From the NCBI RefSeq assembly GCF_001426245.1, contig NZ_LMCM01000001.1, positions 1 through 64,000 of the forward strand: a DNA stretch of 64,000 bases. The letters run 5' to 3'. Both the position numbers and the translations under genes were made by a program. The DNA is from Phycicoccus sp. Root101 (GTDB lineage Bacteria; Actinomycetota; Actinomycetes; Actinomycetales; Dermatophilaceae). The notes beneath the pieces are model-generated. The model was not told the DNA's origin. It saw only the letters and a list, made by a program, of their open reading frames with translations, and searched no databases. Below, one piece after another: positions 2,871 to 61,650 of this stretch (positions within the stretch are counted from its first letter, which is position 1; every line of letters starts with the position of its first letter).

Positions 2871-3041
2871 CCCGCGACGCTATCCCAAGCGGATCCGGCG
2901 GGTTTGGCCACCACAAGCCGATCGTCCGAAGGGAAGGAAGAATCCGCCGATGGTTTCACGGCATCCGCGGCGGAAAGACGCAGGTTCACCTCGAGCCGGG
3001 GTCGAGCAGTTGGCTTGCGGCTCTTCGGCTCTGCGCCGCCG

Positions 3042-3047
3042 TAGACT
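3042..3047 (+). promoter_or_regulatory. -10 box of cysM, leaderless layout
   Basis: TAGACT ends 7 nt before the GTG of cysM, so the transcript would begin at or next to the start codon. No ribosome-binding site is present. Confidence 0.6.
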
Positions 3048-3054
3048 CCGGCGC

Positions 3055-3969
3055 GTGAGCAACCCTCCGGCGTACCCCACGATGGAGGACGTCATCGGCG
3101 ACACCCCGCTCGTGCGTCTGCAGCGTCTGCCCGGACCGGAGAACGAACGTCGCGGCAATGTGCTGCTCGCCAAGCTCGAGGGGAACAACCCGGCCGGCTC
3201 GGTGAAGGACCGGCCAGCGATCGCCATGATCCGGGGCGCTGAGTTGCGAGGGGATATCTCCCCCGGCGACACCCTGCTGGAAGCCACCTCGGGCAACACC
3301 GGGATCGCCTTGGCGATGGCGGCGGCGATCAGCGGCTACCCCTTGGTCATCGTCATGCCCGAGGACGCCTCCACCGAGCGGATCCAGACGATGAAGGCGT
3401 ACGGAGCCGACCTTGTCCTCACCCCGGCAGATGGCGGCATGGAAGAGGCTCGCGATGTCGTGACGCGGATGGAACGGGATGGTCGCGGCCGGGTCCTGGA
3501 CCAGTTCGGCAACCCGGACAACCCCCGTTCCCACGAGGACGGGACGGGCCCGGAGCTCTGGCGTCAGACTGATGGACGGATCACGCACTTCGTGTCCGCG
3601 ATGGGCACCACCGGCACGATCACCGGGGTCTCGCGGTTCCTGAAGTCTCGCAACCCCGACGTCCAGATCGTTGGGGCACAGCCCGCAGAGGGCTCCAAGA
3701 TTCCCGGGATCCGCGCCTGGCCCCCGGAGTACGTGCCGAAGATCTTCGACCCGTCGGCGGTGGACCGGACCATGGAGGTCACCCAGACCGACGCCGAGGA
3801 GACGGCCCGCCGGCTGGCCCGCGAGGAGGGCATCTTCGGCGGTGTCTCCGCGGCCGGCGCCTGCTGGACCGCCCTGCAGGTCGCCCAAGAGGTCGAGGGG
3901 GCGACGATCATCTTCGTGGTCTGCGACCGCGGCGACCGGTACCTCTCCAGCGGCGTGTTCCCCGCCTGA
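3055..3969 (+). CDS. cysM: Cysteine synthase B (O-acetylserine sulfhydrylase family)
   Basis: This PLP enzyme makes L-cysteine from an activated serine (O-acetylserine, or O-phosphoserine in some actinobacterial CysM) and a sulfide donor. It has 304 residues, the usual length. GDTPLVRLQRL opens the fold, NNPAGSVKDRP carries the PLP lysine (K51), SGNTG (79-83) binds the substrate carboxylate, and GTTGTITGVSRFL binds the PLP phosphate. RYLSSGVF lies at the C-terminus. I chose the GTG at 3055 because a TAGACT -10 box sits 7 nt before it. The longer upstream frame is antisense to the neighbouring hydrolase. No mec or sulfur-carrier gene is adjacent, so the sulfur donor is open. Confidence 0.93.
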   Translation: MSNPPAYPTMEDVIGDTPLVRLQRLPGPENERRGNVLLAKLEGNNPAGSVKDRPAIAMIRGAELRGDISPGDTLLEATSGNTGIALAMAAAISGYPLVIVMPEDASTERIQTMKAYGADLVLTPADGGMEEARDVVTRMERDGRGRVLDQFGNPDNPRSHEDGTGPELWRQTDGRITHFVSAMGTTGTITGVSRFLKSRNPDVQIVGAQPAEGSKIPGIRAWPPEYVPKIFDPSAVDRTMEVTQTDAEETARRLAREEGIFGGVSAAGACWTALQVAQEVEGATIIFVVCDRGDRYLSSGVFPA

Positions 3970-7022: not shown

Positions 7023-7418
7023 TCACAACCGAGGGACGTAGCGCTTGCCCTGGAGGGCGTCGTACACGAGCCCTGCGCTGCGGCGGGCCGCCAACAGCCG
7101 TACCCCTTCCGCCTCCAGGTCCGCGAGCACCTGGGTCAACCCCTCGCTGGTGAGGTGGTCGCCGAGCTCGACGCGCACCTCGCGGTACGCCTGTCTCATC
7201 GCCACCAGCTGGGCGTCGATGTGCCGCGTCGCCACCCAGGCGAGGGCCACCGGCTGGCGGCGCCACCCCGCATACGAGCGGTAGTCCGACGGGCAGTGGT
7301 CGAGCAGCCACGAGACGGCCGGCACCTGCCACCCGGGGCTCTCCGGCGGCGGCACGAGTGGCGGCCAGCCCGGCGGGACCGCCCCGAGGACCTCAGCCCG
7401 GCGGGCGCGGCTCGGCAC
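7023..7418 (-). CDS. Conserved hypothetical protein, candidate SOS gene
   Basis: This 131-residue cytoplasmic protein carries no fold name I can give. Its core (PGWQVPAVSWLLDHCPSDYR, then a segment rich in W, R and H) is well structured, with a long charged C-terminal helix region (EGLTQVLADLEAEGVRLLAARR) and a YVPRL end. I chose the GTG at 7418 because GGAG lies 6 nt before it. The longer frame to 7544 would run through its own promoter. A perfect LexA-type box and a TAGACT -10 lie 50-70 bp upstream, so DNA damage probably induces it. Function unknown. Confidence 0.7.
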   Translation of the reverse strand: MPSRARRAEVLGAVPPGWPPLVPPPESPGWQVPAVSWLLDHCPSDYRSYAGWRRQPVALAWVATRHIDAQLVAMRQAYREVRVELGDHLTSEGLTQVLADLEAEGVRLLAARRSAGLVYDALQGKRYVPRL

Positions 7419-7468
7419 GACCAGCTCCGGGCGGCGTGGCGGACGACCGGGTGTGGGAGTCGCCGCGT

Positions 7469-7484
7469 TCGAACATGTGTTCGA
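7469..7484. promoter_or_regulatory. LexA (SOS) box
   Basis: TCGAACATGTGTTCGA is a perfect match to the actinobacterial SOS box TCGAAC-N4-GTTCGA. It directly abuts a TAGACT -10 box read leftward (7489-7484), so bound LexA would cover the start site of the gene at 7418-7023. The site is a near-perfect palindrome, so its orientation is not meaningful. Confidence 0.85.
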
Positions 7485-7621
7485 GTCTAGGTCATGCCGG
7501 GCTGTGCCGACAGCTACTCGCGACCGTTCGTGGCTCCGCGCCACGGATGGTGCTCAGCGAGGGTGACCCACGACCATTCCTGGGTCCGAGGCCATGAAGG
7601 GTGGCGCGGACGAGCCCTACC

Positions 7622-49820: not shown

Positions 49821-51968
49821 TCAGGCGTCGATGCGCTCCCGGTCGAGCTCGGCTGCCGACTCGACGATGAAGTCCTTCCGGGGACCCACGTCGTTGCCCA
49901 TGAGGAGGTCGAACACGTTCTCGGCCATCTCGGCGTCCGCGAGCGTCACGCGCCGCAGGGTCCGGTGCCGCGGGTCCATCGTGGTCTCCGCGAGCTGGTC
50001 GGCATCCATCTCGCCGAGGCCCTTGTAGCGCTGCAGCGGCTGCTTGATGTTCTTCCCGCGCTTGCCGAGGGAGGCGACCGTCGTCCGCATCTCCTTCTCG
50101 GAGTAGGTGTAGATGAGGTCGTTCTTCTTGGCACCGTTGTTGACGACCTCGATCCGGTGCAACGGGGGCACGGCGGCATACACCCTCCCGGCCTCGACCA
50201 GCGGGCGCATGTAGCGGAAGAAGAGGGTGAGCAGCAGCGTCCGGATGTGGGCGCCGTCGACGTCCGCGTCGGTCATGATGATGACCTTGCCGTAGCGCGC
50301 CGCGTCGAGGTCGAACGAGCGCCCGGAACCGGCCCCGATCACCTGGATGATCGCGGCGCACTCGGCGTTCTTGAGCATGTCCGAGACCGAGGCCTTCTGG
50401 ACGTTGAGGATCTTGCCGCGGATCGGCAGCAGCGCCTGGTAGTCGCTGGAGCGGGCGAGCTTGGCGGTGCCGAGGGCGCTGTCGCCCTCGACGATGAACA
50501 GCTCGGACTTCTCGACCTCGGACGACCGGCAGTCGGCGAGCTTGGCAGGCAGCGTCGACGACTCGAGGGCGTTCTTGCGACGCTGGGTCTCCTTGTGCAG
50601 CCGGGCGCTGATCCGCGACTTCATCTCGGAGACGACCTTCTCCAGCAGCAGGGCCGCCTGGGCCTTCTCGCCCCGCTTCGTGGAGGTCAGGAGGCTGGTG
50701 AGCTCCTGCTCGACGACCTTGGAGACGATCGCGCGGACCGCGTTGGTCCCGAGGACCTCCTTGGTCTGCCCCTCGAACTGCGGCTCGGCCAAGCGGACCG
50801 TGACCACGGCGGTGAGGCCGGCGAGGACGTCGTCCTTCTCGGGCTTGTCGCTGCCGACCTTGAGGCGACGGCTGTTCACCTCGAGCTTCTTGCGGAACAC
50901 CTTGAGCAGCGCCTGCTCGAAGCCGGCGATGTGGGTGCCGCCCTTGGGCGTGGCGATGATGTTGACGAAGGAGCTGACCTTCGCGTCGTACCCGGTGCCC
51001 CACCGGACCGCGATGTCGACGCCGCACTCGCGCTCGACGGCGGTCGGGGTCATGTGCCCCTTGCCGTCCAGGACCGGCACCGTCTCGGTGAAGGTGCCCG
51101 TGCCCTGCAGCCGCCACACCTCGGTCACCGCGGTGTCGGGGGCGAGGAACTCGGCGAACTCGGAGATGCCGCCGTCGTGGACGAAGGTCTCCTCGTGCGG
51201 CCCGTCGGCCCCCGGGGTGCCGGGAAGCCCACGCTCGTCGCGGATGACGATGGTGAGCCCCGGGACCAGGAACGAGGTCTGGCGCGCGCGCGAGACCAGG
51301 CTGGGGTAGTCGAACGCCGCGTCCTTGAGGAAGATCTGCTCGTCGGCCCAGTAACGCACCCGGGTGCCGGTGACGCCCCGCCTGGCCTTGCCGACGACGG
51401 CCAGCTCGCTGGAGCGCTCGTAGGGTGTGAAGGCGTGGTCCGGCGCCTTGTCCGCGGTCGCCACGTCCGGGAAGTACCCGGGCTCGCCGCGGCGGAAGCT
51501 CATCGCATAGGTCTTGCCGGTCCGGTCGACCTCGACGTCGAGGCGTGCCGAGAGGGCGTTGACCACGGACGCACCGACGCCGTGCAGACCACCGGACGCG
51601 GTGTAGGAACCGCCGCCGAACTTGCCCCCCGCGTGCAGCTTGGTGAAGACGACCTCGACCCCGGTGAGGCCGGTGCGCGGCTCGATGTCCACCGGGATGC
51701 CACGACCGTTGTCGCGGACCTCCACCGACCCGTCGCGGTAGAGGATCACCTCGATGCGGTCGCAGTGACCGCCGAGCGCCTCGTCCACCGCGTTGTCGAT
51801 GATCTCCCACAGGCAGTGCATGAGGCCGCGGCCGTCGGTCGACCCGATGTACATGCCGGGACGCTTGCGCACGGCCTCGAGGCCCTCGAGGACCTGCAGG
51901 TGGTGGGCGCTGTAGTCCGACGTGGACTTCGTCGTCGCGGCCTTCTTCGCGGTGGTGGCTTCAGCCAC
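49821..51968 (-). CDS. parE: DNA topoisomerase IV subunit B
   Basis: This 715-residue GHKL ATPase subunit of a type IIA topoisomerase shows the ATP-binding motifs EIIDNAVDEALGG, DNGRGIPVD and GGLHGVGASVVNALS. A transducer domain follows, then the TOPRIM motifs EGDSALGTAK and MTDADVDGAHIRT, and the C-terminal RYKGLGEMDADQL. A basic 15-residue tail precedes the domain. GTG 51968 follows GAAGGG. It is oriented against parC, 7.6 kb away, instead of running in series with it. Confidence 0.94.
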   Translation of the reverse strand: MAEATTAKKAATTKSTSDYSAHHLQVLEGLEAVRKRPGMYIGSTDGRGLMHCLWEIIDNAVDEALGGHCDRIEVILYRDGSVEVRDNGRGIPVDIEPRTGLTGVEVVFTKLHAGGKFGGGSYTASGGLHGVGASVVNALSARLDVEVDRTGKTYAMSFRRGEPGYFPDVATADKAPDHAFTPYERSSELAVVGKARRGVTGTRVRYWADEQIFLKDAAFDYPSLVSRARQTSFLVPGLTIVIRDERGLPGTPGADGPHEETFVHDGGISEFAEFLAPDTAVTEVWRLQGTGTFTETVPVLDGKGHMTPTAVERECGVDIAVRWGTGYDAKVSSFVNIIATPKGGTHIAGFEQALLKVFRKKLEVNSRRLKVGSDKPEKDDVLAGLTAVVTVRLAEPQFEGQTKEVLGTNAVRAIVSKVVEQELTSLLTSTKRGEKAQAALLLEKVVSEMKSRISARLHKETQRRKNALESSTLPAKLADCRSSEVEKSELFIVEGDSALGTAKLARSSDYQALLPIRGKILNVQKASVSDMLKNAECAAIIQVIGAGSGRSFDLDAARYGKVIIMTDADVDGAHIRTLLLTLFFRYMRPLVEAGRVYAAVPPLHRIEVVNNGAKKNDLIYTYSEKEMRTTVASLGKRGKNIKQPLQRYKGLGEMDADQLAETTMDPRHRTLRRVTLADAEMAENVFDLLMGNDVGPRKDFIVESAAELDRERIDA

Positions 51969-52349
51969 GGGGTTCCCTTCTCGGTGCTCTGGCGGCCAGG
52001 TCGCTGACCGGTCCCCGCAGGGTAACCCGCGGCGCGGACAGGGCCGCGCAGGCACGCGGCACGTCCCGGGGTCGGTGGGCGTTGGTCCCATCGCGGGGCG
52101 ACGGACCTGGCCCAGGGCCCCGTCCGGACCGATCTGGACCCGCCCGGACCCATCCACCGGACACCTGACCTACGAATCACCTGTTGCGACATGACATGAC
52201 CCACATGGTGACCCAATACGAGCCGGGAAGAACGTGGCGTGCTTGACTGTTCTAACCGGCGCCGGACCCGGAAAGTTGTCTCACCCCTGTGACAACCCCG
52301 AACCGGCGGAGGACGTCTCATGGAGACAGACGAATGAAGGAAGGCTGAC
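51969..52349. other. Divergent parE / DUF7455 control region
   Basis: No gene is seen in these 381 bp. For parE, a leftward TACCCT (-10-like) lies around 52020-52030. For the rightward gene, TTGACT (52243-52248) is a possible -35 without a good -10. GTTGTC (52275-52280) and GACAAC (52291-52296) form an inverted repeat that could be an operator. Confidence 0.4.
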
Positions 52350-53080: not shown

Positions 53081-53515
53081 CTAGTACCCGCCTGCGCCGC
53101 CGTCCTTGCGACGGTCCCAGCGCTCTTCCATCCGGTCCATGAACGACCCGGCCGTCCGACGAGACCTGGGGCCCTTGCCCTGACCGGCCTTGGGCCGGGC
53201 CATCGGGTGGCGGACGGTTCCGTCCGGCTGGACCGCGCCGAGGGCCGCCTTGCCGCGCCGGGGCGGGGTCAGGGCGAAGGCCACGGCGGCGACCATGATG
53301 GCGAAGCCGATGGCCCCGATCCACATCGTGGTGTTGACCCCCACGAGCACGAGGGCGAGGCCGAGGACCACACCGACCACGCCGATGGCCACCCGTCGTC
53401 GGGCAGCCGCACGAGCACCGGCACCCTGCATCTGCGACGCGAACTTGGGGTCCTCGGCGTACAGAGCCTGCTCCATCTGCTCGAGCAGCTGCTGTTCGTG
53501 CTCTGAGAGCGGCAC
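53081..53515 (-). CDS. DUF3040 membrane protein
   Basis: This 144-residue protein begins MPLSEHEQQLLEQMEQALYA, the signature of DUF3040. It has two adjacent membrane segments (about 40-58 and 62-80) and a basic C-terminal region. GTG 53515 follows GGAGG. In many actinobacteria this gene stands before mraZ at the head of the division/cell-wall cluster and near dinB. Here dinB is upstream, but mraZ is not downstream. Confidence 0.9.
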   Translation of the reverse strand: MPLSEHEQQLLEQMEQALYAEDPKFASQMQGAGARAAARRRVAIGVVGVVLGLALVLVGVNTTMWIGAIGFAIMVAAVAFALTPPRRGKAALGAVQPDGTVRHPMARPKAGQGKGPRSRRTAGSFMDRMEERWDRRKDGGAGGY

Positions 53516-53706
53516 AGTGACCTCCTGGCAATCGGCGTGCATGTGCTCCAACGCGCCAGGCCGCCGATTCGTTGCGCCTGCGAAGGAGCATCTTTGCCGG
53601 TCGGTGGCGTGGCGCCGACACCATCAGGATATGTCGCGCAGCGGTGTTGCACCATCCGTTCGCCGGCACCCGTCGAGGTGATCTGCGTCAGGGACCAAGG
53701 ACCCGG

Positions 53707-54984
53707 TCAACGACCCGTCGCAGGGGGGTCACTGGGACGTCCCGGAGCACGTCGGTCGCGGTCCTTGTCGCTGATCAGGGCCGCCGGGCGGACGCTGCCG
53801 GCGCCGAACCGGGCACTGGCCCGGTCCACCGCCCGGTCCGCCTCCCGCCAGCCGTGGTCGGGCTCGTCGAGCAGGCCCTGGATGGGGGCACCCGCGCTGT
53901 CCACCAGACCCTCCATCCGCACCCCGACGAGGCGGATGCGGGCGCGCTGCAGGCCCAGCGCGTCATACAGGCTGCGCGCGGTCTCGTAGATCTCGCGGCT
54001 GACGTCGGTGGGGTCGCGCAGGGTCTTGCTTCGGGTGATCGTCGTGAAGTCCGAGAACCGCACGCGGACGGTCACGGTGCGTCCGAGCATGCCGGCGGAG
54101 CGGACCCGGGCCGCGGTGCGGTCGCTCAGCTTGAGCAGGTGGCGGTGGATCTGCACCGGGTCGTCGATGTCGAACTCGAACGTCTCGTCCGAACCGATGC
54201 TGCGCTCGCGGCGGACCGGTTCGACCCCTCGGGGGTCCCGACCCCACGACAGGTCGTGCAGGTGCGGGCCGGCCGACTCCCCCAGGGCTCGGCGCAGGGT
54301 GTCGAGGGGGGTGTGCGCGATGTCGGCGACGGTGTGCAGCCCGAGCCGCAGCAGCGTCTCCTCGGTCTTGTCGCCGACGCCCCACAGCGCGCCGACGGGG
54401 AGCTGCTGGACGAAGCTGACCACCTCGTCGCGGGGGACGACGACCAGGCCGTCGGGCTTGGCGAGGCCTGAGGCGAGCTTGGCGACGAACTTCGTCGGGG
54501 CGACGCCGACCGAGCAGGTGATGCCCTGCTCGTCGTGGATCGTGTCGCGGACCAGCTGGCCGATCCGCGCCGGGTTGCCGAGCCGACGGACCGAGCCCGC
54601 GACGTCGAGGAAGGCCTCGTCGAGCGAGAGGGGTTCGACGATGGGGGTGATGGTGTCGAAGGTGGCCATCACGGCGGCCGAGATCTGGCTGTAGAGCGCG
54701 TGGTCGGGGGCGATCACGGTGGCCTGCGGGCACAGGCGGCGGGCCCGCGACATCGGCATGGCCGATGCGACCCCGAAACGGCGGGCCTCGTAGGTCGCCG
54801 ACAGCACCACGCCACGGTTGCCGCCACCGCCGATGATGACCGGGGTGCCGACGAGGTCGGGACGACTGAGCAGGGATGCGGACGCGTAGAAGGCGTCCAT
54901 GTCGACGTGCAGGACGGTGCACCCGGTGTCGTCGGGCGGCCGGTCCGCACTGCGCGACGGCAGGGTGAACTGGCGACGGCTCAC
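53707..54984 (-). CDS. dinB: DNA polymerase IV (Y family)
   Basis: This 425-residue translesion polymerase extends across lesions with low fidelity. The palm motifs are VLHVDMDAFYASA (first catalytic Asp) and EPLSLDEAFLDVAG (Asp-Glu pair). YEARRFGVASAMPMSRARRL lies in the fingers, the HhH segment is LWGVGDKTEETLLRLG, and the little-finger domain runs to about 370. The last 50 residues are basic and disordered. No clear C-terminal clamp peptide is seen. GTG 54984 overlaps the methyltransferase stop as GTGA, which places dinB at the end of the SOS operon. Confidence 0.94.
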   Translation of the reverse strand: MSRRQFTLPSRSADRPPDDTGCTVLHVDMDAFYASASLLSRPDLVGTPVIIGGGGNRGVVLSATYEARRFGVASAMPMSRARRLCPQATVIAPDHALYSQISAAVMATFDTITPIVEPLSLDEAFLDVAGSVRRLGNPARIGQLVRDTIHDEQGITCSVGVAPTKFVAKLASGLAKPDGLVVVPRDEVVSFVQQLPVGALWGVGDKTEETLLRLGLHTVADIAHTPLDTLRRALGESAGPHLHDLSWGRDPRGVEPVRRERSIGSDETFEFDIDDPVQIHRHLLKLSDRTAARVRSAGMLGRTVTVRVRFSDFTTITRSKTLRDPTDVSREIYETARSLYDALGLQRARIRLVGVRMEGLVDSAGAPIQGLLDEPDHGWREADRAVDRASARFGAGSVRPAALISDKDRDRRAPGRPSDPPATGR

Positions 54985-55808
54985 GTGCGGGCGAGGACGT
55001 GGACCGCGGCGCCGAGCTGCCCGAGGAACGCGAACTCGGGGTGCCGGTTGGCGGCGGCCTCGAGCTCGAGCAGCGCGGCACGGTCGGCGTCGGAGTCGAT
55101 GAGCGCGGAGGGCACCAGGTCGCTGAACAGGCGGACCCCGTGGACGTCCTCCACGACGAGGCCGGTCTGCTCGACCATCGACCGGAGGGTGCTGGCGTCG
55201 AACCGCCGCGGCAGCGGGTCGGCTGCTCCCCAGCGCCCGTCCTCGCTGACGAGGGCCTGGTGGGCCTGGGTGAACTGGCCGGCGAGCACGCGGGCCAGGA
55301 CGACGGCGAGGCGCTGCGCCGCGACGATGCTCAGGTGTCCACCGGGGGCGACCACCCCGGCGAGGGCGGTGAGGGTGGCCTGGGGGTCGTCGACGACCTC
55401 GAGCGTGCCGTGGCAGCAGACGAGGTCGACCAGCCGGTCGCCGACGATGGCGGCGAGGGAGTCGGCGTCACCCTGCACGGCGGTGACGCGGTCGGCCACC
55501 CCGCGCTCGGCGCTGCGGCGGGACAGCGACGCCAGGGCGTCGGGGCTGGGGTCGACGACGACGACCTGGTGGCCGAGCTCGGCGAGCGGGACGGCGAGGC
55601 CGCCGGTGCCGCCACCGAGGTCGAGGACCCGCAACGGCTGGATGTCACCGTCGGCGCGGGCAGCCTGCTGGGCGGCGAGCAGACCGGTCACCGCGGTCCA
55701 CACCGCGGAGGTCCGCAATGCCGTCTCGACGCCACCGCGTCGGGTCCGCCACTGCTCGTCGGCCACCGCGGCCACCTCCTGTGCTTCCTGCTGGATCGTC
55801 CTGCTCAC
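54981..55808 (-). CDS. SAM-dependent methyltransferase in the SOS operon
   Basis: This 275-residue class I methyltransferase has motif I VLDLGGGTGGLAVPLAELG at about 62-80, motif II VVVVDPSPDAL and a post-motif VDLVCCHGTLEVVDD; GGHLSIVAAQ follows. The substrate is unknown; small molecule, tRNA and protein are all possible. GTG 55808 starts 1 bp after the dnaE2 stop, and its own stop overlaps dinB (GTGA). Coupling on both sides suggests a function tied to the repair polymerases or their lesion, which is inference. Confidence 0.85.
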   Translation of the reverse strand: MSRTIQQEAQEVAAVADEQWRTRRGGVETALRTSAVWTAVTGLLAAQQAARADGDIQPLRVLDLGGGTGGLAVPLAELGHQVVVVDPSPDALASLSRRSAERGVADRVTAVQGDADSLAAIVGDRLVDLVCCHGTLEVVDDPQATLTALAGVVAPGGHLSIVAAQRLAVVLARVLAGQFTQAHQALVSEDGRWGAADPLPRRFDASTLRSMVEQTGLVVEDVHGVRLFSDLVPSALIDSDADRAALLELEAAANRHPEFAFLGQLGAAVHVLART

Positions 55809-55809
55809 C

Positions 55810-58800
55810 CTAGTGGCCGGAGCTGCCGGGGCTGGAGTGCCACAGCTTGCGTGGTGCGGCGAGCTGTCCCAGGCCGGTGTCGTCGGGCACCTCGGCGCCC
55901 TGGGCCAGCGCCCGTGACCCGCGGACGTCCCCACCGGCCGGCTTGATGTCGGCGTAGGGCGACTGCTTGAAGCCCGACGCGTGCACCAGCACCCGGCGTC
56001 CTGCGGGACCTGCGGCGCGCTGGACCTCCTCGGCAGCCTCGGCCTGCTCCGTGGCGCTGCGTTCGCTGTCCTCCATCGCGGCATGCACGGCCTCGATCCC
56101 CCCGCGGGTCCAGGCCTCCCACAGCGGCGTCAGCTCCCACGCACCCGTGGCCCGCAACGAGATCCCCCGTGGTCCGGTACGCCGGACCACCCCCCGCACG
56201 AGCATCATCCAGGAGTGGAACACGGTCGCGGCGTAGGGCCCCTGGACGTCCTCGAAGAAGGTCGCGTCGACCGGTCCCGTGGAGTCGTCGAGGGTGAGGA
56301 ACACGACCCGTCGCCCCGACCGGATCGGTGGCGTCTGGGTGGCGACCTTGACCCCGCACACCCAGACCGTGGACCGGCTGCGGGATCGCAGCAGGTCACG
56401 GCTGCGGGTCACCCCGAGCGCCTCGAGCAGCGGCGCGTAGAAGTCGACGACGTGGGCGCTGGCGTCCAGGCCGAGGATGTCGAGCTCGGCGCGGACGCGT
56501 TCGGGACCGGTGAGCTCCGGGAGCCCGGTGCCCGAGGTGAGCTCCGGTCGGTCGCCGAGGTCGAGGGTGAGCTGGGTCGGCTGCTCCGCGGCCGCCGTCA
56601 CCGGCAGGGCGGCCTGCGACTGTCCCGCGGCGAGGGCCCGCACGCCCGACCCGTCGCTCACCCCCGCCTCCGGGGACCGTCCCCCGACCGGTATGCCGCG
56701 GGTCCCCCGGCCGCGCCGAGGGGCCGCCCGCTTGGCCGACCGGTCCAGCGCCCGGCCGTAGCGGTCGAGCTCGGCGACGTGCAGGAGCAGGTCACGGCGG
56801 GTCGTGCGCCCGCGGCGCCCGAGGCCGCCACTGCCCATGCCGCGTGATCCCACGGCACCGCCTCCTCCACCCCAGGCACCGCCGCCTCCTGCCCTCGGCA
56901 CTCCCCCGGGACCACCCAGCGAACCCATGCCGTAGAGCGCGTCGAACCCACCGGCGAGGACGAGCCGCTCCGCGACCGGTCGGGAGACGTGCGCGCGGTG
57001 CCAGAAGTCGGCGAGCCCGGCGTAGGGCTGGCCCGCGACGATGCGGGCGACCTCGGCGTCGCTGATGCCCCGGACGTCGGACAGGGACAACCGGATGCCG
57101 TAACCGCGGGCGTCGGGCAGGTCGGGGTCGGGTCGCTCGGGGTCGAACGACCCGTGCCCGACCCCCTCGAAGGCCACGGACGGCTCGTCGAAGTCCTGCA
57201 CCTGCACGTCGGTGGCGAGGTCGTCGAGGCGTTCGACCCGGTAGGCACCGGTCGAGGCGTTGACGTCGAGCCCGAGCACCGCGATGCCGAGCGACCGGGC
57301 GTCGTCGAGGATGAGCCGCTTGGGGTACATGCCGGGGTCGTGGGTGAGCACCCCGGACAGGAACGCCGCCGGGTGGTGGGTCTTGAGCCACGCCGAGTGG
57401 TAGGTCGGCAGGGCGAAGGCCGCCGCGTGGGCCTTGCAGAAACCGAACGACGCGAACGCCTTGAGCACCTCCCAGATCCGGTCGACGTCGGCCGGGTCGT
57501 AGCCGCGGGCCAGGGCCGCAGGTCGCCACCAGGCCTCGATCTCCACCTGACCTCGAGGGGTGCCCAGGGTGCGGCGCACCTCGTCGGCCTGGGCGAGGGA
57601 CACCCCGGTCGTCTCGGCGACGATCATCAGCACCTGTTCGTGGAAGACGACGACCCCCTCGGTCTCCCGGAGCGCCTCGATGAGGGTGGGGTGCAGGTAG
57701 CTGGGCTCCTTCCACCCGTGCCTGGCCTCGAGGAACGGCGTGATCATGTCGGACTTCACCGGTCCGGGCCGGAACAGCGAGATGTCGATGACGAGGTCCT
57801 CGAAGCGCTCCGGCCCGAACTTGCCGATCAGCTCGCGCTGGCCGGGACTCTCGATCTGGAAGCAGCCGAGCGTGTGGCTCGTGCGGATCAGCCGGAACGT
57901 CGCCTCGTCGTCGAGCGGCACCTGCCGCTGGTCGTCGAGGTCCACCTCCACGGCGTCGACCCGCTGCACCTCCTGCAGCGCGTGGGCCATCGCCGACTGC
58001 ATGCGGATCCCCAGCACGTCGAGCTTGAGCAGGCCCAGGGCCTCGACGTCGTCCTTGTCGAACTGGCTCATCGGGAACCCCAGCCAGCTCGCCTCCACCG
58101 GGGTCCGGTCGAGCAGCCCGCCGTCGGACAGCACCACCCCGCAGGGGTGCAGCGCGATGTGGCGAGGGAGCCCGTCGAGGCGCTCGACGAGGTCGAACAG
58201 CACCCGCATCCGGGGACTGTCCAGCCCGCGCGAGCGCAGCTCGGGCAGCTCGGCGATGGCGCTGCGTGCGTCCCGGGCCCGGATGTGCGGGAAGGCCTTG
58301 GCGATCTCGTCGATCTCCGTCGGCGGCAGGCCGAGCGCCGCGCCCACGTCACGGATCGCGTGGCGCACCTTGTAGGTGTCCATCATCGAGACGCAGGTGA
58401 CACGCTCACCGCCGAACCGGTCGAGGATGCGCTCGTAGACCTCGGTACGGCGGGCGGACTCCACGTCGATGTCGATGTCGGGTAGCTCGGCCCGCAGCGG
58501 CGAGCAGAACCGTTCCATGAGCAGGTTGTAGCGGATCGGGTCGACCCCGCTGATGCCGAGCAGGTAGTTGACCAGCGACCCCGCCCCCGACCCGCGCGCG
58601 GCGACGCGGACCCCCATCTCCCGGATGAGGTCGACGACCTCTGCGACCGTGAGGAAGTAGGTGGGGTAGCCCAGCTCGGCGATGACCTTGAGCTCTTCGG
58701 TGAGCCGGCGCTCGACCGCGGCGAACTCCTTCTCCCCGATGCCGGGGTAGCGGCCCCCGACGGCTGCGCGGCAGCGCTGCTCCAGCCTGGCCTGCGGGCT

Positions 58801-59937
58801 CTCCCCCGGCTCGATCTTCAACGTGTGGGGCTCGGGCAGGTGGACCGAGCCGATGCCGAGGTCGTGCCGGGCGCTCTGGGCGCACGACAGCCCCACGGCC
58901 AGGGTGCGCTGGAGCAGCTCGTCGGCGCGACCACGGTCGCCGCCGGTGACCTCGAGGGCGACGGCATGCATGGTCGGGGTCGCGGCGAGGTGGGCGGCGT
59001 CGGTGACCCGGTCGAGGTGACGGGTGTCGAGGGCGACCAGCCGCCGCGCCGCGTCGAGCAGGTCGACCACGGCCGACTCCCCCGGGTCGACGTGGCGCAC
59101 CGCGGCGGTGAGTACCGCGGGGACACCCTGCTCGTCGGCGAGGCCGAGCAGCCGGCGGGCGTGGCTGCGGGACGCCGGGGTGCCCTCGGGGCCGCCGTGG
59201 CAGACCACCTCGATCGCGACCGCGCCCGCCGGCAGCCGTCGTCGCCACGCGTCGAGCAGGACCCGCGCCCGGTCGACGCGCTTGACCAGCAGCGCCCGGC
59301 CCACGTCGGAGTCGGGTCCGAGCAGGACCAGCAGCGGGCTGGCGTGGTCCCGGCTGGACCGGGGGTCGCCGCCACGCCAGCAGCCTGCGGCGACGACCGC
59401 GGCCGAGGTCACCGGCACCCCTCGCTCCCCGCGCAGGTGGGTCTCGGTCACCAACCGGCACAGCGCCGCCCACCCGACTCCTGCCGGGACCCCGCCGGCC
59501 CGGCCCCGGGCCAGCACGGTGACCCGCGGGTGGCGGGGGTCGCGGTCGGCGCCACCCCGGGCGGGGGTGCGCGGCGGACGGCTCGGCTGCTGCGGTGGCT
59601 GCTGCAGTGGCTGTTGCGCGGAGGAGGAGGCGGACCGGGAGGAGTATGCGGCGGGGTCGCGTCGTCCCTCCCCGGCACCACCGTGGTCGCCCGGGGCGTC
59701 CGGCCCCACGGCGAGGTCGACGCCGAGGACCGGGGCGATCCCCGCCGCGGTGGCGGCCTGGACGAACCGGACCGCGCCGTAGAGGCCGTCGCGGTCGGTG
59801 AGCGCGAGGACCGGCTGCCGGTGCTGGGCGGCGCGCTCGACCAGCGCCTCGGGGGTGGAGGTGCCGTAGCGCATCGAGAACCCCGAGGCGACGTGCAGGT
59901 GCACGAACTCCGCCGCCGGGCCGGCAGCGGCGCTCAT
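55810..59937 (-). CDS. dnaE2: Error-prone DNA polymerase III alpha subunit
   Basis: This 1375-residue C-family polymerase performs mutagenic translesion synthesis. The PHP domain comes first (VHLHVASGFSMRYGTSTPEAL). The catalytic ELPDIDIDVES (Asp487/489/491) and ISLFRPGPVKSDM lie in the palm, and AFASFGFCKAHAAAFALPTYH in the fingers, in two parts. An HhH region and a C-terminal OB domain (about 1190-1240) follow. It is about 300 residues longer than usual because of a Gln/Pro-rich insert (about 98-130) and Gly- and Arg-rich inserts (about 1005-1120). QLTLDLG at 1122-1128 resembles a clamp-binding peptide. ATG 59937 overlaps the HEPN gene stop (ATGA). Confidence 0.94.
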   Translation of the reverse strand: MSAAAGPAAEFVHLHVASGFSMRYGTSTPEALVERAAQHRQPVLALTDRDGLYGAVRFVQAATAAGIAPVLGVDLAVGPDAPGDHGGAGEGRRDPAAYSSRSASSSAQQPLQQPPQQPSRPPRTPARGGADRDPRHPRVTVLARGRAGGVPAGVGWAALCRLVTETHLRGERGVPVTSAAVVAAGCWRGGDPRSSRDHASPLLVLLGPDSDVGRALLVKRVDRARVLLDAWRRRLPAGAVAIEVVCHGGPEGTPASRSHARRLLGLADEQGVPAVLTAAVRHVDPGESAVVDLLDAARRLVALDTRHLDRVTDAAHLAATPTMHAVALEVTGGDRGRADELLQRTLAVGLSCAQSARHDLGIGSVHLPEPHTLKIEPGESPQARLEQRCRAAVGGRYPGIGEKEFAAVERRLTEELKVIAELGYPTYFLTVAEVVDLIREMGVRVAARGSGAGSLVNYLLGISGVDPIRYNLLMERFCSPLRAELPDIDIDVESARRTEVYERILDRFGGERVTCVSMMDTYKVRHAIRDVGAALGLPPTEIDEIAKAFPHIRARDARSAIAELPELRSRGLDSPRMRVLFDLVERLDGLPRHIALHPCGVVLSDGGLLDRTPVEASWLGFPMSQFDKDDVEALGLLKLDVLGIRMQSAMAHALQEVQRVDAVEVDLDDQRQVPLDDEATFRLIRTSHTLGCFQIESPGQRELIGKFGPERFEDLVIDISLFRPGPVKSDMITPFLEARHGWKEPSYLHPTLIEALRETEGVVVFHEQVLMIVAETTGVSLAQADEVRRTLGTPRGQVEIEAWWRPAALARGYDPADVDRIWEVLKAFASFGFCKAHAAAFALPTYHSAWLKTHHPAAFLSGVLTHDPGMYPKRLILDDARSLGIAVLGLDVNASTGAYRVERLDDLATDVQVQDFDEPSVAFEGVGHGSFDPERPDPDLPDARGYGIRLSLSDVRGISDAEVARIVAGQPYAGLADFWHRAHVSRPVAERLVLAGGFDALYGMGSLGGPGGVPRAGGGGAWGGGGGAVGSRGMGSGGLGRRGRTTRRDLLLHVAELDRYGRALDRSAKRAAPRRGRGTRGIPVGGRSPEAGVSDGSGVRALAAGQSQAALPVTAAAEQPTQLTLDLGDRPELTSGTGLPELTGPERVRAELDILGLDASAHVVDFYAPLLEALGVTRSRDLLRSRSRSTVWVCGVKVATQTPPIRSGRRVVFLTLDDSTGPVDATFFEDVQGPYAATVFHSWMMLVRGVVRRTGPRGISLRATGAWELTPLWEAWTRGGIEAVHAAMEDSERSATEQAEAAEEVQRAAGPAGRRVLVHASGFKQSPYADIKPAGGDVRGSRALAQGAEVPDDTGLGQLAAPRKLWHSSPGSSGH

Positions 59938-60419
59938 GGCGCTGCGCGCGTCGAGCCGGCGGAGCTCGAGCCGGCGGAGGTCGTCGCGAGGGCGGTGGGT
60001 ACGAGCACCTCGTCGTGGCTGCCCGGCTGGACCGGCAGCCCGAGGCTGCGGCAGACCAGGTCGAGGAACACCTCGGACTGCCGGATCAGGTCGTCGGCCT
60101 CCCGGGCGCTGTGGGGCTGGCCGCGCCGGGCCGTCACGAGCTCGAAGAACTCGGCCCACTCCGCGAGCTCCGGGGCCACCGTCGGCAGCAGCTCCCACAG
60201 GGAGCGCGGCCCGCAGTGGCCGTCCGGGGTGGCGCGGGCGGCGACGAGGGCGGCAGCGGCCCGCAACGCACCGAGCTGGGCCTGCAGGTAGCGCTGGGAC
60301 ACCTCCCGGCTCTGGCAGGCCTCGAGCAGGGAGTGCCGGGACCGGTCGAGCAGGTCGAGGCTGGCGCCCGCGCTGTGCCTGGTGCCGGTCGCGGAGGCGT
60401 CCACGGTGATGGTCGCCAT
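59934..60419 (-). CDS. SAV_6107-family HEPN-domain protein
   Basis: This 161-residue helical protein belongs, by pattern and by its place before dnaE2, to the SAV_6107 HEPN family: DRSRHSLLEACQSREVSQRY, AALRAAAALVAAR-like helices, WELLPTVAPELAEWAEFFE and SAREADDLIRQSEVFLDLV. HEPN proteins are often RNases (R-x4-6-H) or nucleotidyltransferase partners. R98-x4-H103 is present, but its loop position makes activity uncertain. ATG 60419 is 1 bp after the DUF6504 stop. Its own stop overlaps dnaE2. Confidence 0.82.
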   Translation of the reverse strand: MATITVDASATGTRHSAGASLDLLDRSRHSLLEACQSREVSQRYLQAQLGALRAAAALVAARATPDGHCGPRSLWELLPTVAPELAEWAEFFELVTARRGQPHSAREADDLIRQSEVFLDLVCRSLGLPVQPGSHDEVLVPTALATTSAGSSSAGSTRAAP

Positions 60420-60420
60420 C

Positions 60421-60801
60421 TCAGTCCGCCACACGCAGCAGCCGCCAGCGCAGGCCGCGGTCCTGGTGGTCCGCACCGAGGTCGTAGACACCGACCGCGG
60501 CGCACCGGCCGGCACTGGCCTCCACCCGCCACACCTGGCGCTCCCGGGCGTCGGTGAGGACGTCGTTGCTGCCCTGCTCGCGCGCCTCGCGCCACCACGG
60601 CCGACGCTCCTGCCAGCGGTCGAGGACCGCCCGCACGACGTAGAGCCGACCCCGCCACACGAACGCCTCGGGTCCCGGGGTCGTGGGACCGTCCTCGACG
60701 GGGACACCGTGGACGCCTTCGGGACCGGGGGCACCGGGAGCACCGGGGGCACCGGTCGCCGTCTGGCGGACCTCGATGGGTTCTTCGTACCGGCGCACCA
60801 C
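60421..60801 (-). CDS. DUF6504 protein, first gene of the SOS operon
   Basis: This 126-residue protein of the DUF6504 family has an N-terminal Pro/Gly/Ala repeat (TGAPGAPGAPGPEG, encoded by 9-bp units at 60726-60755) and a folded part, FVWRGRLYVVRAVLDRWQER, then REARE, VWRVEASAG and YDLGADHQDRGLRWRLLRV. The domain looks like a small beta-rich unit often found beside repair polymerases. The role is unknown. GTG 60801 has GAAGGAG 7-8 nt upstream. A LexA box lies 170 bp upstream. Confidence 0.85.
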   Translation of the reverse strand: MVRRYEEPIEVRQTATGAPGAPGAPGPEGVHGVPVEDGPTTPGPEAFVWRGRLYVVRAVLDRWQERRPWWREAREQGSNDVLTDARERQVWRVEASAGRCAAVGVYDLGADHQDRGLRWRLLRVAD

Positions 60802-60970
60802 GAGCAGGCTCCTTCGTCAGGGCAGGGTGGAATGGTGTGGCTCTGGCCCTGCAGGGGACGGGGTCGAGGCGTCCGCTGCGGGCCAGAGCCCCACGGTGGT
60901 CCCTGGGCGCGGACGGCAGGTGGCGGGAGTCGTCCGCCCTGCTGGTCGCCCGGTCCTTCGGTGGAACCAT

Positions 60971-60986
60971 TCGAACAGATGTTCGA
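60971..60986. promoter_or_regulatory. LexA (SOS) box
   Basis: TCGAACAGATGTTCGA is a full match to TCGAAC-N4-GTTCGA. It lies upstream of the leftward operon DUF6504-HEPN-dnaE2-methyltransferase-dinB and is the natural site for DNA-damage control of these polymerases. Confidence 0.88.
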
Positions 60987-61113: not shown

Positions 61114-61650
61114 ATGAGCCCGCCCGAGCCGGTCGCTCCACCCCCCGCCGAGGTCCGCGACCTCACCGGCCACCCCGCCGTGCAGCGGGTCCTGGCCACG
61201 CTCGCCGTGCACAGCGTCGACCCCGAGCTGGTCAGCCTGCCCGACGCCGTCCGCACCGCCGCCGCGGCCGCCGCGGCCATCGGCGTCACCCCGGCCGAGA
61301 TCGCGAACTCACTGATCTTCCGCGCCCACGACGAGCAGGGCACGATCACCCCGCTGCTCGTGCTCACCTCGGGTGCCCACCAGGTCGACCTCGTCAAGGT
61401 CGCCGAGCTGCTCGACGGCGTGGACCACGTCGACCGCGCCGACGCCGACTTCGTCCGCGCCGCGACCGGGTTCGCCATCGGCGGCGTCGCCCCGGTCGGC
61501 CACCCGGCCCCGATCCGCACCGTCGTCGACGTGTCGCTGAGCCGCTACCGCCACGTCTGGGCCGCCGCCGGCCACAGCCACACCGTCTACCGCACCACCT
61601 ACGAGGAGCTGCTGCGCGTCACCGCCGGGCACGCCATGGAAGTGGCCTGA
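61114..61650 (+). CDS. YbaK/aminoacyl-tRNA deacylase domain protein
   Basis: This 178-residue protein has the YbaK/ProRS-INS fold of trans-editing deacylases, which remove wrong amino acids from tRNA. Typical segments are IGVTPAEIANSLIFRAHDEQG, in two parts, then a strand-rich middle, and ATGFAIGGVAPVGHPAPI (about 117-134) with the conserved GG-x-x-P-x-G signature. The exact aminoacyl-tRNA is unknown. It is leaderless and divergent from the SOS operon. Confidence 0.9.
   Translation: MSPPEPVAPPPAEVRDLTGHPAVQRVLATLAVHSVDPELVSLPDAVRTAAAAAAAIGVTPAEIANSLIFRAHDEQGTITPLLVLTSGAHQVDLVKVAELLDGVDHVDRADADFVRAATGFAIGGVAPVGHPAPIRTVVDVSLSRYRHVWAAAGHSHTVYRTTYEELLRVTAGHAMEVA

Follow-up and report, generated by a model that had tools for sequence, protein, structure and literature searches.

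The first 64,000 nucleotides (nt) of contig NZ_LMCM01000001.1 of Phycicoccus sp. Root101 (positions 1 to 64,000, forward strand; hereafter the window) contain an SOS operon that encodes the polymerase DnaE2 together with the Y-family polymerase (PolY) DinB, a HEPN protein, a DUF6504 protein and a methyltransferase, and that includes neither ImuA' nor ImuB, the partners of DnaE2 in the mycobacterial ImuA'-ImuB-DnaE2 mutasome. This locus raises the question of how such a DnaE2 could work, and of what the additional genes might contribute. Our analysis makes it quite likely that the operon, repressed by LexA, serves a split mutasome composed of DnaE2, of DinB as a scaffold acting with RecA, and of DUF6504 as the C-terminal domain of ImuB (ImuB-C), with the HEPN and methyltransferase genes as extras.

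Structure and LexA control of the operon

Five tightly coupled genes on the reverse strand form a single unit, as read from the sequence, and all of them were named by Pfam above the curated cut-offs. From the promoter region onwards, the features are:

60971..60986, – strand: LexA (SOS) box, perfect palindrome TCGAACATCTGTTCGA (sequence scan; conserved before the first gene in relatives)
60421..60801, – strand: DUF6504 (PF20114), 126 amino acids (aa), predicted free-standing ImuB-C domain (Pfam, 84.3 bits; GTG start after GAAGGAG)
59934..60419, – strand: HEPN_SAV_6107 (PF18726), 161 aa, SOS-linked HEPN fold (Pfam, 78.2 bits; solved-structure matches)
55810..59937, – strand: DnaE2, error-prone C-family polymerase, 1375 aa, DnaE2B-like clade, motifs PDIDID and QLTLDL (Pfam, NCBIfam, tree)
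54981..55808, – strand: class I S-adenosylmethionine methyltransferase, 275 aa, distantly CmoM-like (Pfam; NCBIfam, 106.1 bits compared with a CmoM cut-off of 366)
53707..54984, – strand: DinB, Y-family polymerase, 425 aa, motifs VDMDAFY and SLDEAFL, C-terminal QGLLD and ADRAVDRASARFGAGSVRPAAL (Pfam, NCBIfam, motifs)

The junctions are, in gene order, a 1-nt gap, an ATGA overlap, a 1-nt gap and a GTGA overlap, and the box (60986–60971) is 170 nt ahead of the first start codon, that of DUF6504. A preliminary description of this DNA had proposed five leftward genes, coupled by 1-bp gaps or 4-bp overlaps, under the control of a perfect LexA box; the arrangement was confirmed from the sequence, and the control by LexA gained support from relatives, as described below. 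A simple scan matched no sigma-70-type promoter and no terminator, which says little because the genome is GC-rich.

At up to two mismatches, the whole window gave 11 strand-matches to the box, where 2.86 would be expected; 100 shuffles all stayed below 11. Perfect matches were limited to two, at 60986–60971 and 7469–7484. Eighteen relatives (L063–L080; 16 of the same family and two of the same order) were fetched over 14–15 kb, and the order DUF6504-HEPN-DnaE2-(methyltransferase)-DinB-DUF3040 recurred among them, with DinB, DUF3040 and most of DnaE2 in 17 and the methyltransferase in 14. At L063 (genome G068), a locus with masked stretches, the DnaE2 match ends at about residue 80 (2915–3136), and the following 11 kb contain no match to the methyltransferase, DinB or DUF3040. 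The box, with at most one mismatch and at most 600 nt upstream of the first gene, was present in 17 of these 18 relatives with DUF6504, HEPN and DnaE2, a count that includes L063 with its DnaE2 fragment.

We also looked for the box at 104 loci over several families, in the 600 nt preceding the first gene, which was either HEPN itself or a DUF6504 gene ahead of it. The loci were chosen by hand, and 10 of the 21 genomes of the window's family that have HEPN without DUF6504 are among them. A box was found at 69 of these loci with at most one mismatch and at 93 with at most two, compared with 0 and 4 of 104 in 600-nt downstream controls and with at most 0.2% and 2.5% per group in shuffled upstream sequences that preserved base content only. 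At most one mismatch was seen in 17/18 full operons (group A), 2/2 loci with DUF6504 and HEPN without DnaE2 (B), 9/10 HEPN-only loci of the family (C), 3/10 Corynebacterium loci (D), 9/10 and 25/32 other loci of family f7, which includes Corynebacterium (E and F), 0/18 loci of f6, whose genomes are large and probably Streptomyces (G), and 4/4 loci of f8–f10 (H). The f6 loci had the weakest box, with 10/18 at up to two mismatches. The Corynebacterium loci rose to 9/10 at that threshold, and in a larger set, with shuffles of the same kind, gave 7/36 and 22/36 at up to one and up to two mismatches, respectively. No box was found upstream at L087, a HEPN-only locus, or at L209. With a box in its promoter region that is conserved in relatives, the operon probably belongs to the LexA regulon, and its expression in Phycicoccus sp. 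Root101 would be expected to rise upon DNA damage.

Search for ImuA' and ImuB in the genome

Neither ImuA' nor ImuB is encoded in the window, as had been stated before, and profile searches of the 12-contig genome (listed as 100% complete) found no such pair elsewhere, save for one weak partial match to an ImuB-C2 profile. This match (G000:C7:101101-101244, E 6.6e-4) covers 49 of 127 positions and was set aside as partial and weak. The ImuA' profile, built from seven open reading frames (ORFs) adjoining ImuB in other genomes, gave no match in 10 of 10 genomes, namely our own and nine DUF6504-bearing relatives. As a positive control it matched in six of nine other genomes, four of which had supplied profile rows and two of which (G197 and G395) had supplied none. 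The ImuB-C2 profile matched in the same six genomes, where five had supplied rows and G197 was independent.

Only two Y-family genes were found in the genome, the operon DinB and one other, and each passes an NCBIfam cut-off for DNA polymerase IV, which an ImuB taken from a different genome misses by a wide margin. A RecA profile retrieved RecA itself and two weak matches below the cut-off.

DUF6504 as a separate ImuB C-terminal domain

We collected the stop-to-stop ORFs, 1,545 in all, of loci that surround Y-family, RecA-like or ImuB genes, and searched them with a profile of 22 DUF6504 sequences. The three highest-ranking distinct matches (E 0.001–0.005) each fell in the last ~75 residues of an ORF or frame: a Rhizobium ORF between imuA and dnaE2 (residues 381–453 of 456), the ImuB of Agrobacterium vitis (430–500 of 506) and a frame behind an inactive PolY (519–576 of 582); a fourth row was the inactive-PolY locus fetched twice. 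PF20114 itself matched the C-terminus of the A. vitis ImuB (E 0.0022, 18.7 bits) and the small ORF that follows the inactive PolY (E 1.1e-4, 22.9 bits), each time under its 24.2-bit cut-off. The Caulobacter control genome, which has an ImuB, exceeded the DUF6504 cut-off in a match scored at the level of the genome. PMC3765255 describes ImuB-C domains that stand free beside DinB or DnaE2, as well as a conserved tryptophan at the C-terminal end; in DUF6504 the tryptophan W119 (of 126 residues), close to the C-terminus, is invariant. DUF6504 thus appears to be the C-terminal domain of ImuB as a separate protein. The ImuB helper, which had been regarded as missing from this locus, is then not simply missing, since its functions may be distributed over DUF6504 and a DinB with RecA-binding-like and clamp-like motifs. 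Tying DUF6504 to ImuB-C also means that genomes seemingly without ImuB can be read correctly.

At L081 (1149–2593), an inactive-PolY gene is followed by an ORF that looks like a free-standing ImuB-C.

Motifs of DinB and phylogenetic position of DnaE2

The operon DinB has both catalytic motifs, VDMDAFY and SLDEAFL, in intact form; of 22 DinBs of relatives, 18 matched S[LM]DEAFL. The C-terminus of the operon DinB, QGLLDEPDHGWREADRAVDRASARFGAGSVRPAAL, contains a clamp-like QGLLD followed by ADRAVDRASARFGAGSVRPAAL, which is similar to the RecA N-terminal (RecA-NT) motif described in PMC6511836. This second half resembles the N-terminus of the genome's own RecA (SVMGQIEKNFGKGAVMRL; SLDSVMGQIEKNFGKGAVMRLGDD), a likeness that was judged by eye and by pattern. 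Among the relatives' DinBs at the locus, [RK]FG occurs at the place of the RecA-NT motif in 22 of 22, [RK]FGxG in 20 and a stricter pattern in 14; the second DinB of the genome has no RecA-NT-like motif. The operon DinB is therefore apparently an active PolY with a RecA-NT motif. DnaE2 carries the catalytic PDIDID and a clamp-like motif of its own, QLTLDL. Given clamp-like motifs in both polymerases, the earlier premise of a DnaE2 that depends on ImuB for access to the clamp need not hold here.

Low-complexity insertions, rich in S/Q/P and in G, were also seen in DnaE2 at residues ~80–130 (PHP region) and ~1000–1060 (near the C-terminal linker).

In a FastTree phylogeny of 48 DnaE sequences, the window DnaE2 grouped with DUF6504-linked DnaE2s and with sequences from Nonomuraea, from one f4 genome (G531) and from two genomes of f6. 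A separate clade, with support of 1.0, comprised the DnaE2s linked to ImuA/ImuB, namely those of Rhizobium, Agrobacterium, Burkholderia and each of the six genomes matched by the ImuA' profile; the other DnaE of our genome fell among replicative DnaE1-like sequences. The tree places the window DnaE2 outside the ImuA/ImuB-linked clade.

Comparison with known systems and a possible mechanism

A DnaE2B-PolY-[ImuB-C]-RecA system of the Tessaracoccus lapidicaptus type has been predicted computationally for Actinobacteria as a fourth DnaE2B group (PMC12926913). The core of our operon matches this prediction, because DUF6504 is a putative free-standing ImuB-C and DinB has RecA-binding-like and clamp-like motifs. 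Both have, in Actinobacteria, a DnaE2 outside the ImuA/ImuB-linked clade, an active-looking PolY with RecA-NT, and no ImuA or ImuB, and a RecA gene is present in our genome. The operon differs from the predicted system in that HEPN and the methyltransferase are added to it in one tightly coupled unit; neither of the two was found in the main text of PMC12926913. The operon is real and belongs to this predicted kind, with two extra genes.

Similar to the DnaE2-DinB2 pair of Streptomyces (PMC6511836, PMC9380542), the operon combines an SOS-controlled DnaE2 with a Y-family partner, and the f6 sequences indicate a related DnaE2 clade. However, the Streptomyces pair is described as having an inactive PolY without ImuB-C, whereas the catalytic motifs of DinB are kept and ImuB-C is apparently present here. 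With the mycobacterial ImuA'-ImuB-DnaE2 mutasome the operon shares an SOS-linked DnaE2 and the ImuB-C and RecA-NT modules (PMC6511836, PMC12926913), but the modules are split, ImuA' is absent and DnaE2 is of another clade.

In the mechanism that we propose, DNA damage would lead to the cleavage of LexA, upon which the five genes would be made together. DnaE2 would be the error-prone polymerase of the split mutasome, and the DinB-type polymerase would take over the scaffold role of ImuB. With what looks like a copy of the RecA N-terminal oligomerization motif in its C-terminus, DinB could dock on RecA, which may stand in for ImuA', while DUF6504 might bridge DinB/RecA and the PHP domain of DnaE2. 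HEPN would be an older SOS gene of this chromosomal site, retained where the mutasome has been lost or the cell relies on a different type, and the methyltransferase would be an accessory of the HEPN/DinB locus. The operon is a clean test case both for an ImuB split into separate proteins and for the replacement of ImuA' by RecA.

Several observations weigh against this interpretation. The published system is itself only a computational prediction. PF20114 misses the ImuB of B. cepacia and the four actinobacterial ImuBs tried, and a profile–profile comparison of DUF6504 with the diverged actinobacterial ImuB2-C was not significant (probability 2.4%, P 0.019), so that the proposed homology of DUF6504 depends on a few proteobacterial-type ImuBs with modest E-values. 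Searches of PDB sequences with the DUF6504 and ImuB2-C profiles yielded no match up to E 1, and a single-sequence structure model of DUF6504 (predicted local distance difference test, pLDDT, of 35) was too poor to use. The clamp-like QLTLDL motif was matched in only 7 of 20 DnaE2s of relatives. Several deep nodes of the tree are weak (support of 0.197, 0.154 and 0.207); at the last value, the far DUF6504-linked DnaE2s of L101 and L102 stand beside the ImuA/ImuB-linked clade. Furthermore, the two f6 genomes and the f4 genome share the clade of the window DnaE2, and G171 and G531 have no DUF6504 match.

SOS linkage of the HEPN gene

The part of this locus that is new is the HEPN gene, which is conserved and LexA-linked, and which we find more surprising than the mutasome core. 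Among the 149 genomes of the window's family, DUF6504 occurs in 118 and HEPN in 134; 113 genomes have both, and in every one of these the gene immediately ahead of HEPN, on the same strand and at most 1 kb away, is DUF6504. DUF6504 is absent from 21 of the 134 HEPN-bearing genomes. We fetched ten such HEPN-only loci: in eight, HEPN is directly followed by DUF3040, and in two the order is HEPN-methyltransferase-DinB-DUF3040. Although DnaE2 and DUF6504 are gone from these loci, the LexA box (at most one mismatch, within 600 nt upstream) is kept in nine of the ten. HEPN therefore gives the impression of an SOS gene that is older and has this locus in common with the mutasome, and it should not be counted by default as a mutasome subunit. 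In two of the HEPN-only genomes, G004 and G027, a DnaE2 encoded at another site belongs to the ImuA/ImuB-linked clade, which, together with the HEPN-only boxes, suggests that the SOS link of HEPN is independent of the type of mutasome and may be older than the mutasome at this locus.

In family f7, HEPN is present in 141 of 151 genomes (the HEPN of G674 is that of Corynebacterium aurimucosum) and absent from all nine g61 genomes, which are probably Mycobacterium. Corynebacterium glutamicum cg2381 is described as a conserved hypothetical gene of the LexA regulon that is induced by ciprofloxacin (M 3.86), and mraZ is cg2378 (PMC5055667). The C. glutamicum control genome has HEPN, and in all 36 of the Corynebacterium loci examined (of 51 fetched) mraZ is found downstream of HEPN, in the same orientation and no more than 5 kb away; in nine of ten g296 loci, an ORF starting like DUF3040 lies between them. 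Judged by its position, cg2381 is likely to be the HEPN orthologue. In the open-licence literature, supplements excluded, we found no paper on DUF6504 and no report, under the family name, of the SAV_6107 HEPN as an SOS gene. As a widespread LexA-linked gene in Actinobacteria, HEPN poses a question about the damage response that is open to a gene deletion test.

Fold and putative active site of HEPN

The operon protein matches both the family profile of HEPN_SAV_6107 and the HEPN fold, and its best solved-structure matches are HEPN proteins, including HEPN/MNT toxins and the AbiV RNase. HEPN toxins carry their catalytic pair in the loop before the last helix, and the window HEPN has R98-x4-H103 in this loop. 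The preliminary description had pointed to such a pair and to a possible cleavage of RNA. The pair does exist in the window, but an R-x4-6-H in this loop was found in only 15 of 189 unique family sequences (16 of 190 if L026, our own locus, enters a second time) and in a single one of the 56 sequences of a first set, and RNA cleavage is unlikely for this reason. Of the genus mates, G124 and G137 have the R-x4-6-H pair and G032 has R-x3-H. Of the 56 sequences in the first set, 55 retain R99, which is invariant in a Corynebacterium-based alignment. An alternative pair, R43-x4-H48, was considered and rejected: it occurs in 51 of 56 sequences, but the window has Q, and position 43 is not conserved in Corynebacterium-based alignments. 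In the table of PMC3710099, the HEPN-M (SAV_6107) family (PF18726), to which our protein belongs by family and fold, is listed as lacking the catalytic motif, in a row that gives no gene context; the LexA link and the conserved locus found in this analysis go beyond that row. The most likely activity of HEPN is the binding of nucleic acid or of a protein, not the cleavage of RNA.

In a separate genus (g18; loci L006 and L008–L011), five of nine HEPN sequences have R-x4-6-H in the loop before the last helix.

Alternative explanations

Our preference for a split mutasome with two extra genes has to be weighed against other readings of the cassette. If it were a degenerate ImuA'-ImuB-DnaE2 mutasome, with ImuA' and ImuB elsewhere in the genome, an SOS-linked DnaE2 would be expected, as is found; but the ImuA' profile was empty in this genome and not in six others, the only two Y-family genes are both DNA polymerase IV by NCBIfam, and DnaE2 was placed outside the ImuA/ImuB-linked clade. 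We consider this highly improbable and, as far as the 12-contig assembly goes, refuted. A genuine role of HEPN in the translesion complex, be it as a subunit or as a regulator, a partnership that had been suggested for it earlier, agrees with its constant position next to DUF6504 where both occur (113/113 genomes), with DnaE2 as the next gene in 17 of 18 fetched operons and with the tight coupling in the window. However, HEPN keeps its own box where DnaE2 and DUF6504 are gone (9/10 loci, including G004 and G027 with their other DnaE2), and three far relatives (L095, L096 and L099) have DUF6504-DnaE2-DinB-DUF3040 with no HEPN or methyltransferase match; we regard such a role as unlikely. The idea of an alternative or extended translesion complex is supported as far as an alternative assembly goes, but not for HEPN as a default partner.

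HEPN could also be an active RNase or toxin-like SOS effector, restrained by the methyltransferase or the mutasome. The structural matches to toxins and to AbiV, the R98-x4-H103 pair with its counterparts in G124, G137 and g18, and the conserved R99 would all suit such an effector. The scarcity of the pair (15/189 and 1/56) and the tabled lack of the motif (PMC3710099) argue against it. In addition, Pfam showed no MNT partner in the operon or in the two flanking genes scanned, no PADLOC model matched HEPN and, unlike with mobile toxins, no plasmid or phage match was obtained at E 1e-5; on the last two results, HEPN was also rejected as a mobile defence gene. An RNase or toxin is quite improbable. 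HEPN and the methyltransferase might instead make up an SOS module of their own, with a possible action on tRNA or translation and only the promoter in common with the mutasome, a reading with somewhat more in its favour. The methyltransferase adjoins HEPN in 18 of 18 f6 loci (1.5-kb flanks), HEPN-methyltransferase-DinB occurs without DnaE2 at L087, L092, L212, L215 and L123, and the closest NCBIfam model of the methyltransferase, matched over nearly its full length, is CmoM, a tRNA wobble enzyme. Yet the score of 106.1 bits is far under the equivalog cut-off of 366; HEPN has no methyltransferase match in 46 of 48 f7 loci, 8 of 10 HEPN-only loci of the window's family and 4 of 18 full operons; and the f6 loci, in which the adjacency is constant, have the weakest LexA box. 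We therefore view a separate module as rather doubtful. Beyond the split mutasome itself, we tentatively suggest, as a possibility that we rate above any of these alternatives though still short of probable, that an ancestral and largely overlooked SOS arm of Actinobacteria consists of a non-cleaving HEPN_SAV_6107, often with a CmoM-like methyltransferase, which might act on RNA or the fork whatever the mutasome, and around whose promoter translesion cassettes were assembled or lost.

Neighbouring genes and other observations

The genes that flank the operon are:

53081..53551, – strand: DUF3040/SCO2097-family gene, directly downstream, a conserved neighbour (Pfam, NCBIfam, relatives)
61114-61650, + strand: tRNA-editing-domain (YbaK-like) gene, divergent, 128 nt from the LexA box (Pfam)

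The DUF3040 gene probably lies outside the operon. The divergent tRNA-editing-domain gene and the operon have in common the intergenic region that contains the LexA box. The methyltransferase matched the PADLOC model mads_2 (E 1.1e-17) and, weakly, two other methyltransferase models; these matches cover the general methyltransferase domain, and we did not take it as a defence gene. Further downstream lies a gyrase-B-type gene, possibly parE (49821-52157, – strand); parE is a LexA target in Streptomyces venezuelae (PMC9380542). The second perfect LexA box of the window (7469–7484) is in or just upstream of a small ORF without a Pfam match (7023–7544, – strand), which is a possible SOS gene candidate.

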